From the NCBI GenBank assembly GCA_963402885.1, contig OY727096.1:4340001-4404000 (forward strand): a stretch of DNA of 64,000 bases, written 5' to 3'. Below the pieces are notes generated by a model. It was not told where the DNA came from. It saw only the letters and a program-made list of their open reading frames with translations, and did not search any database. The position numbers were made by a program, and so were the translations under genes. The stretch is from Antedon bifida (lineage: Eukaryota > Echinodermata > Crinoidea > Comatulida > Antedonidae). Numbering within the stretch: position 1 is the first letter of the stretch; each line of letters begins with the position of its first letter. This document shows, piece after piece, positions 35,366-49,687 of the stretch.

Positions 35366-38300
35366 ATGATAATGGAAGATACAGTTGAAAAAGATAACCA
35401 TGGATATTCTATTGAAGTAAGTATTTAGTTGTATAATATTGGTTCCTACTGGGAAGCGCCGCGAGTTGTTGACCGATAATCACGACGCGGTGCTGTGACT
35501 CGAACTGTCACTTGTAACTCACTTGCATCGCGATTACGTCAACCAAATGAACTGTTCGTCAGCACCTACGGATATAATTCATAAACATACCATGAATACA
35601 TAGGCCTACATTAGCAGTTAGCTAAATTCTAGTTGAGCTATATTAGACAGATAAATGCACGTAAGTGTATTCAGCAATTCTAGCCCTCGAAATTTACTCG
35701 AAATACGCAAATATTTAGGGTGTATCAAAATTACTTGCTGTGTAAGATACATTAAATTACTATATTTTTTTATCCACAAGGTTATTGAAATGTTATTAAC
35801 ATCATCTGATGGTAGCAATGTTTCTGAAATTGATAGAGAAACGACATCCGTGGATACCTGTCATAAAGACCCTAAAGACACTTCTGTGAATAGTAAGCCA
35901 ATCAAAAAGCACAGATGGAGTTGCGTAATAATCGCAGTTACGACTTTGTTTTTCTTGATTGTATTCAGTTTAGCTGTTGGAGGTTAGGATAAATATTTAT
36001 TTTATTAACAATAAACAACAAATGAACTTTTTTAAAGAATAAAAAACAAATAATCATAAATTGTAATAATATAGAAGATCCACTGACTAATTTCAGATAA
36101 AATAATGCCAATGTAAAAATTTTTCAAAATGTGTTCTGTTTCTTTTGATTTCAGTTTTCTTTTTAAACCAATCAGTTCCGGTCATTCAGGGTAAGTTAGT
36201 ATAGTTTGTATTAAATCCGATTTAAGTAAAAAATTATTATTTTTTTCTTTTTTCCTCCTGTCTTCTTTCGCTTACGTCTTTTCTTTTGCTTCATTCTCTT
36301 CTCTTCATTGGCATTACTTCATTTTACTTAGAAACCATTCACATTACAATTAATGTGTGTTTTTTTTTATCAAACTGAATTTATTCTAATTGTTTTATGT
36401 TGTCGGAAGTTCGGAAACATTATTCACGACATCACCTTAAACAATTCGGTGTCAATCAAGGACTTATGAAAGTTGGAAAAGCTCTCGGAAAAAAATCCGT
36501 AAAAGCAGAGGCTGGTATAGGCCTAAACTACTTAATAAATTGTAAAACATTCGGCGTACATTTCCCACATGTATTCTGTTTACATTGTGTTTACATTTTC
36601 AGTACAACATGAGGCCAAACCAGACGATCCCGGAAGTTCAGCAAATTCTTCCTTAGGATCAACTAGTCAGAACAAAATTGCTGGAAATGTTGCTCGAGAA
36701 CAAAGCGTCAACAATTTTACAAGGTTACCAACTGAACGTGGATCAAGACCAAAGATTAAAAATAGTTTTCGATTCTCTGATGCCAATCACAATTCAGGTT
36801 CGTCGTTGCAGTGGTTGTATAACATATGTTACTACTCGAAATACAACATAGGGGCCTATATACATATTATAGTTACATAGATTCGAGTTAAAATATCTGC
36901 CTAGATACATTTTAAACCCATAGTTGCGTAGAATAATATATTCTACGCAACTATGGGTTTAAAATGTAATTAGGCAGACATTTTAACTCGAATTTATGTA
37001 ACTATAGAGGGCGCTAAAACAGTAATAAAACCGTAGAGGGGGCTATATAACTTACAGAGGCATGTGTAGAAATTACAACGAATAAAATGATTATAAACCG
37101 ATATTACTATATCTTATCTATATCTAGAGTAGTAGAAACTACTACGCATATCGAGATATTATTTTATTCAAAGTAGGGAGATTGTATTTTAGTGGGAGAA
37201 CGGAAGATGAATCGAAATTTCGGGAGACTCCTGTCATTATCGGAAAAGTTGGAAGGTCTGTTCTAGGTCCAAACGACCAATGACACAAACATTCGTCCTG
37301 ATGGTCTAAGGTCGTCTAATATCCTGAAGCTCTGTCTACACTCTCAAACTTTGTGACAAAAAAATGTGCTGTGTCCATATATCAGCATGATGAAGTCATA
37401 CTACAACCATATTTGGGCACATCACACTCTTTTCAAACATGGTTTGATAGTGTAGACAGAGCCTAATGTTTCAATATTTGGTTTCAGATTGCTATGAGAC
37501 TGTGTCTCTCGTCGTTTCTAACGATTTCCGTGTGCTGACGTCACCAAATTATCCGAATGACTATGCAGCGAATTCCGATTGTCTCTGGCAATTTACATCA
37601 CCTCCATCCACCACAATATTAATCGAAGTCATCGATCTAGCCATCGAAACAAATATAGATACGCTTGAAATCGGTTTTGGAGATTCTTCGGATTCTGAAA
37701 CCTCAATTGTTTTAAATGCTTTACATATAAACGAAAGCATTATGACCGTAGCGAATAAACTTTGGGTGCATTTTTCATCTGATAATTCGATTCAATACAG
37801 AGGGTTTAACATGCACATTAGAGTTGTGGAACGTAAGCATAGTCAATTATTTATTTCTTGAATAAAAACGTCTTTCAATCTGTTTCCACTAGACGGATTC
37901 AGTCACCTAGAGTTAAAGCTTGTTTCCCACTAGGACGCAACGCAAGTACGTAGACGCAACGCAAGCGAGTTGACCAATCACACGCGAGTGTTCGAATAAT
38001 CCATCGCTTGAGATTGGTCAAATCACTTTGCGTTGCGTTACGTCCTGGCGTTGCGTTCTAGTGGGAACCAAGCTTTAATCACTGATTTTCATTTCCATTG
38101 CGTGTCGGCTGAGCTATTTGAGTGTGACAAATCATTTATTGAGCACTGATTGGTTGCGAAATGTTGATTACTTTACAAAAAGAAAAGCTAACAAAACAGG
38201 GAATAGTGATTTACTCTTTTCCGAGCTTCTTATTTTGCTGAAGTCATAACGCCAAAAAAATAAATAGATAAATAAATTAAAAAAAATTAAAAAAATTAGA

Positions 38301-49687: not shown

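Follow-up and report, generated by a model that had tools for sequence, protein, structure and literature searches.

A single gene on the plus strand at 35366-49687, gene C, probably makes one long product in which a membrane anchor is followed by two serine protease domains, a reading based on an exon chain predicted from the DNA. The window (the whole 64,000-nt stretch analysed; G000:C9:4340001-4404000, in a genome of 315.6 Mb and 27 contigs) holds three related plus-strand genes, A, B and C. Gene C was modelled as 26 exons with GT-AG at every border and one reading frame (4809 nt, 1602 aa), the sole stop of which lies at 49685-49687. A sequence-only reading of the same DNA had proposed one in-phase chain from the anchor through protease 2, and this is the chain that the DNA-level model returns. 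Its predicted order (tail, anchor, CUB and CUB-like exons, LDLa, protease 1, four LDLa, SRCR, LDLa, SRCR-like domain, protease 2) is laid out below, together with the two neighbouring genes.

8197..18363, plus strand: gene A, single protease; first exon not found; 17-nt last exon past a phase-1 intron with a weak donor (model, homology)
21427..31960, plus strand: gene B, single protease, layout as in A (model, Pfam)
35366..35416, plus strand: E1, start codon and cytosolic tail, phase 0 (first exon of gene B similar in size and phase)
35781..35982, plus strand: E2, signal anchor, transmembrane segment from residue 66, after KKHRW (hydropathy)
36155..36797, plus strand: E3-E4, remainder of the anchor and stalk (exon chain)
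37488..37832, plus strand: E5, CUB domain (Pfam CUB, 5.8e-18)
38518..40109, plus strand: E6-E8, three CUB-like exons (counterpart exons in A and B; profile comparison)
40285..40386, plus strand: E9, LDLa upstream of protease 1 (domain HMM; below the Pfam cut-off)
40559..42137, plus strand: E10-E13, protease 1, with H735, D783, S879, D873 at position 189 and an activation site at R693 before IVGG (Pfam, residues)
42138..42333, plus strand: intron 13, the decisive junction, with a strong donor, a weak acceptor and an unspliced stop at 42182 (splice-site scoring)
42334..44237, plus strand: E14-E17, four LDLa exons, each phase 1-1 (Pfam, exon chain)
44602..44907, plus strand: E18, SRCR (Pfam SRCR, 2.4e-9)
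45467..45595, plus strand: E19, LDLa (Pfam, domain HMM)
45838..46556, plus strand: E20-E22, second SRCR-like domain (SRCR_2 below cut-off; inside the collinear enteropeptidase match)
47509..49687, plus strand: E23-E26, protease 2 and stop, with H1403, D1449, S1544, G1538 at position 189 and an activation site at R1362 before IVGG (Pfam, residues)

Pfam, run on gene C as three separate queries (E1-E13, E14-E26 and E20-E22), returned two Trypsin domains (5.4e-68 and 7.8e-65) and five LDLa stretches (4.5e-32) besides the CUB and SRCR matches given above. Two modules fell below cut-off: the LDLa preceding protease 1 (15.7 vs 24.1 bits) and the second SRCR, detected as SRCR_2 only when E20-E22 was queried alone (2.1e-5, 25.5 vs 27 bits). 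The CUB array described earlier holds clearly for E5; in the profile comparison E6 reaches 95.5% and E7 and E8 ~62%, and these three exons are CUB-like only. Hydropathy predicts a short cytosolic tail and a signal anchor in the N-in orientation, as in a type II membrane protein. His-Asp-Ser and the Arg-IVGG activation motif are kept in both proteases, in line with the earlier description of two complete domains. A pseudogene reading was rejected, the frame being unbroken and no splice site lost. No second genomic site for the SRCR exons of the stem was present among the 81 matches listed, in a search that scores the best candidates only.

Several other elements were observed within and beside gene C. 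A 5S rRNA-like sequence (42634-42745; Rfam RF00001, 51.8 bits) in intron 14 is perhaps a 5S-derived repeat, and a MITE-like short sequence near GTCTACACTATCAAACT or similar recurs, by eye, in several introns (37330-37460, 43379-43500, 44994-45145, 48190-48320). Tail to tail with gene C, a 495-codon open frame on the minus strand (50399-51886) resembles, by eye, an NHL-type TRIM/B-box protein.

The E13-E14 junction and the number of genes

Splice sites were scored with a donor/acceptor matrix built from the modelled introns (n=55). E13 ends in TAT before GTAAGT, in phase 1, and the strong donor previously reported after protease 1 is indeed there: the site at 42137 ranks 24 of 55 introns, and only 1.3% of the window's 3908 GTs score as high. 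Another candidate phase-1 donor lies at 42131 (score 4.1 vs 8.1 for 42137), and the frame is kept by either. E14 is entered in phase 1, confirming the reported continuation into the next LDLa exon, though through a weak acceptor (score 3.65, rank 49 of 55; that of E15 ranks 51 of 55). Among 51 LDLa acceptors outside the window, each taken as the best AG within the open frame (a rule biased toward high scores), six are as weak as that of E14 and the median is 6.4, so this acceptor is either a genuine counterpoint to the single chain or a sign of regulated splicing. Agreement of phase is itself weak evidence for a single gene, since most module exons outside the protease in A, B and C are class 1-1 and such modules would stay in phase even if they came from different genes.

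Within intron 13, three acceptors score above that of E14. Those at 42156 and 42182 would leave introns of 18 and 44 nt, which are too short, and the third, at 42223, leads to an immediate stop. Without splicing, the protease 1 frame ends at TAG 42182-42184, 45 nt beyond the donor; the statement that protease 1 lacks a stop therefore holds if the donor is used and fails if it is not. These sites bear on a reading that overlaps with the one-gene long product, namely that the gene yields both the two-protease form and a short, A-like form ending just past protease 1, at the unspliced stop or through acceptor 42223, by way of the weak E14 acceptor. We think such a dual output rather unlikely: the nearness of the stop, the higher score of 42223, the scarcity of LDLa acceptors as weak as that of E14 and the tiny last exon modelled for gene A past an intron at the equivalent place all speak for it, but the 85-nt intron to 42223 is shorter than all 55 modelled introns (shortest 113 nt) and no canonical poly(A) signal occurs before 43305.

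It is improbable that the halves are instead two adjacent genes, the first being A- or B-like and closing with protease 1 as its sole protease, the second starting further on and carrying the LDLa/SRCR stem and protease 2. The first half resembles A and B, both of which are modelled as ending past their protease, the second half looks like a full enteropeptidase-type stem, and the weak E14 acceptor and the class 1-1 exons, in phase regardless of gene, also speak for such a pair. Against this, the two halves are separated by only 196 nt, vs 3063 nt from the stop of A to the start codon of B and 3405 nt from B to C, and the sequence past the N-terminal anchor yielded neither a start nor an anchor exon with a phase-1 donor. 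Introns 10-19 of gene C contain neither an ATG joined to a hydrophobic exon with a phase-1 donor nor an anchor-type exon with such a donor. The plus-strand scan of the whole window gave five starts and six anchor-exon rows, all before 35983 and some of them false hits to CUB, LDLa or intron sequence in genes A and B. As controls, the anchor scan recovered the known anchor exon of each of the three genes, and the ATG scan recovered B and C and not A, the ATG of which lies in an earlier exon. Within each open frame, E14-E23 lack an in-frame upstream ATG in 10 of 10 cases. An independent start for the second half was rejected on these grounds, no phase-1-donor start or anchor exon being listed after 35982 on the plus strand.

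Polyadenylation signals give mild support to one gene. The first AATAAA or ATTAAA follows the stop by 368 nt in A, 207 nt in B and 86 nt in C, and follows the read-through stop of protease 1 by 1121 nt, inside E15. This absence, which also counts against two genes, discriminates poorly here because, at five of the seven recurrent protease-to-LDLa junctions described below, a hexamer follows the donor at a distance of 30-211 nt; the signal is noise unless genes end at some of those loci. The single-chain reading is carried by the missing downstream start or anchor exon, the narrow gap and the recurrence of the junction, with the poor E14 acceptor weighing against it.

Recurrence of the junction and the origin of gene C

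Thirty-five last-exon stretches (L019-L053) were taken, and in 16 of the 28 readable rows the best donor past the protease domain was in phase 1 with a score of at least 7.8; these rows are not independent, as many are near-copies in two clusters (C11, C13). Thirteen stretches of 8-10 kb were then mapped with HMMs seeded from the window, and exon borders, predicted at the DNA level as the best-scoring sites near domain hits, were examined in eight of them. An in-phase (phase 1) LDLa exon followed within 200 nt (116-192 nt) of seven of the ten last protease exons examined, two of these junctions being near-copies, and the other three had an LDLa or CUB at 310-1850 nt. The junction in gene C, with its gap of 196 nt, adds a further case. 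In the two cleanest cases (L071, L066), more than 900 nt past the donor are free of poly(A) hexamers. At C9:24904001-24922000 (L071, L077) the domains run Fz, protease, four LDLa, Fz, LDLa, Fz and four LDLa, with a corin-like stem placed after instead of before the protease; no second protease was seen in these 18 kb.

Protease clusters lie on C13 and C11. On C13 (4888001-4928000 and 4974001-4992000, minus strand; L064-L067, L073, L074), proteases, LDLa and CUB exons form long clusters of mixed order in which several proteases are followed at once by LDLa, and one candidate start with a hydrophobic stretch lies ahead of a CUB. On C11 (21614001-21644000, minus strand; L068-L070), a protease unit that includes LDLa and CUB exons is repeated nearly unchanged seven times at intervals of ~3.8 kb, and each unit has a phase-1 GTAAGT site on its last exon. 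Of the two candidate starts listed in these 30 kb, one falls on a protease exon. In six of the seven units AATAAA comes 200-228 nt after the end of the open frame in the final protease exon. Given these hexamers and the C13 candidate start, some clusters are probably tandem single-protease genes, and for the C11 array the evidence favours separate genes rather than a seven-protease chain. On the predicted borders, this animal nevertheless shows a protease followed directly by an LDLa stem at several loci, so gene C becomes more credible and less singular.

Recurrence also bears on origin. Genes A and B each open with an anchor, a stalk and a frizzled domain; a CUB, an LDLa, CUB-like exons and another LDLa then lead to a single C-terminal protease (Pfam was applied to B; A was read by homology). 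Gene C shares this beginning minus the frizzled domain and first LDLa, and continues beyond its protease; a frizzled remnant was not found in its intron 4 (best match 14 aa, E 1.2). Its first half aligns with B over 811 aa and with A over 855 aa at 30% identity, and protease 1 is 44% identical to the protease of B and 40% to that of A. A long short-repeat array (TGTATGTTATG and similar) was noticed by eye at 14010-14490, in an intron of gene A.

The sequence-only reading had suggested that a B-like gene fused with an enteropeptidase-like gene. The B-like first half fits this suggestion, as does the LDLa-SRCR-protease block that the second half shares with enteropeptidase and TMPRSS2; the catalytic domains do not, the best solved match being enteropeptidase for protease 1 (4.6e-58) and plasma kallikrein for protease 2. 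With the junction recurring in the genome, tail loss in A and B competes with fusion. In an 11-row tree (four window domains, four other spliced models and three intronless ones, from eight loci tried), protease 1 joins A and B (82/86), then two C13 proteases (88/88) and then the one at C9:24.9 Mb (83/83), and protease 2 stands separate on a long branch. Gene A is modelled with a phase-1 intron past its protease, and the distance of this intron from GDSGG, 160 nt, equals that in C. Since the tree places protease 1, A and B next to proteases lying within longer chains, and A may have kept the phase-1 intron, tail loss in A and B is a live alternative and would fit the tree and intron facts about as well as fusion in C. 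That the protease-then-LDLa-stem order is the older one, with A and B having lost their tails, has in our judgement slightly less than an even chance: these groupings and the intron of A favour it, but the supports are modest and none of the three forks is starred, protease 2 is a long branch, the donor in A is weak (rank 53 of 55), and domain HMMs detect no LDLa/SRCR remnant between A and B.

Catalytic domains and comparison with known proteases

Residues of the two proteases were numbered by motif and alignments. Protease 1 has a trypsin-like pocket, with Asp189 joined by S899/Y900/G901 (214-216) and G911 (226); that of protease 2, the C-terminal S1 domain, is not trypsin-like (Gly189/Thr226), with N1563/G1564/G1565 at 214-216 and T1575 at 226. 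The functional meaning of these positions is established for the S1 family. Asn214 and Gly215 of protease 2 replace the usual Ser214 and Trp215, and its activity is uncertain on account of these unusual residues. Each domain has a propeptide cysteine (682 in protease 1, 1353 in protease 2) and an equivalent of Cys122 (803 and 1469), the pair that tethers the cut protease to its stem in TTSP-type enzymes. Protease 2 is without Cys136 and Cys201, which form a mutual disulfide in chymotrypsin-like folds, and their joint loss is what would be expected of a kept fold. A recent duplication linking the two proteases was rejected, as they are 38% identical and lie apart in the tree.

Among type II transmembrane serine proteases, the second half of gene C is collinear with enteropeptidase (7wqx; query 268-657, 1.4e-53) and also with TMPRSS2; only LRP2 chains, matching the LDLa repeats, stood above enteropeptidase in the match list. 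These enzymes have one protease domain, whereas gene C has two at the DNA level, and its second-half protease carries G1538 in place of the enteropeptidase-type Asp189 and has no trypsin-like pocket. Ovochymases likewise combine several S1 domains and intervening modules in a single chain, but they are secreted, with CUBs between the proteases and no type II anchor; gene C has an anchor exon, and LDLa and SRCR modules between its proteases.

Polyserase-1/TMPRSS9 is described in PMC1435904 as a single chain with a type II anchor, LDLa and three S1 domains, of which the first and second are reported to be active. The gene model of C also has at least two S1 domains; those of polyserase-1 follow one stem in tandem and are released by processing, whereas in gene C a full stem (E14-E22) intervenes. 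The earlier remark that this order was unfamiliar was overstated, since insect Nudel is a printed precedent (PMC11172050, PMC1761132). As excerpted, Tenebrio Nudel (pSerP1050) is a membrane-anchored LDL(2)-SP-LDL(2)-SPH-LDL(3) protein (anchor 58-80) with a trypsin, an SPH and seven LDL (PMC11172050), and bee (Apis) SP20 reads 3LDLA-SP-3LDLA-pSP-LDLA(RGD)-2LDLA(pSP) (PMC1761132). Gene C has the Nudel-type succession of a trypsin-like protease, an LDLa array and a second protease domain in one chain, with an anchor as in Tenebrio. The second domain of Nudel is a non-catalytic homologue or partial and is followed by LDLa, with no SRCR or CUB listed in those excerpts, whereas in gene C the second triad reads as intact and its domain ends the chain. 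The exact order of gene C was not found in the literature compared (passages of the papers cited above and of PMC4085338 and PMC10855680, and the titles and abstract openings listed, with subscription journals thinly covered). What appears to be new, judging from the predicted protein, is the combination of two intact triads, differing pockets and an SRCR-bearing stem between them, to which Nudel and the polyserases come close.

A possible two-step zymogen

The product of gene C would be a 1602-aa zymogen with a type II membrane anchor and two serial S1 proteases, each preceded by a stem. Protease 1 (Asp189/Gly216/Gly226) is expected to cut after Arg or Lys and could cleave at Arg693 to activate itself or a twin, and at Arg1362 to activate protease 2. 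With Gly189/Thr226, protease 2 is unlikely to cut after Arg and would need another enzyme, most simply protease 1. Disulfides, paired as in related proteases, would hold the resulting two-step cascade of two specificities at the cell surface, and the LDLa/SRCR stem would set distance and binding partners. We offer this scheme, in which one anchored chain is a two-enzyme cascade with an Arg-specific protease 1 activating itself and then a differently specific protease 2, as a speculative one.

The usual membrane serine protease has a single catalytic domain at its end. A tether shared by two intact catalysts with different pockets would allow a cascade at fixed stoichiometry on one cell. Were the cascade real, it would be one case among many in this animal in which a protease lies within the chain and a new LDLa stem follows. 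The recurring junction suggests that domain order in the membrane serine protease family is freer than vertebrate and insect examples imply.
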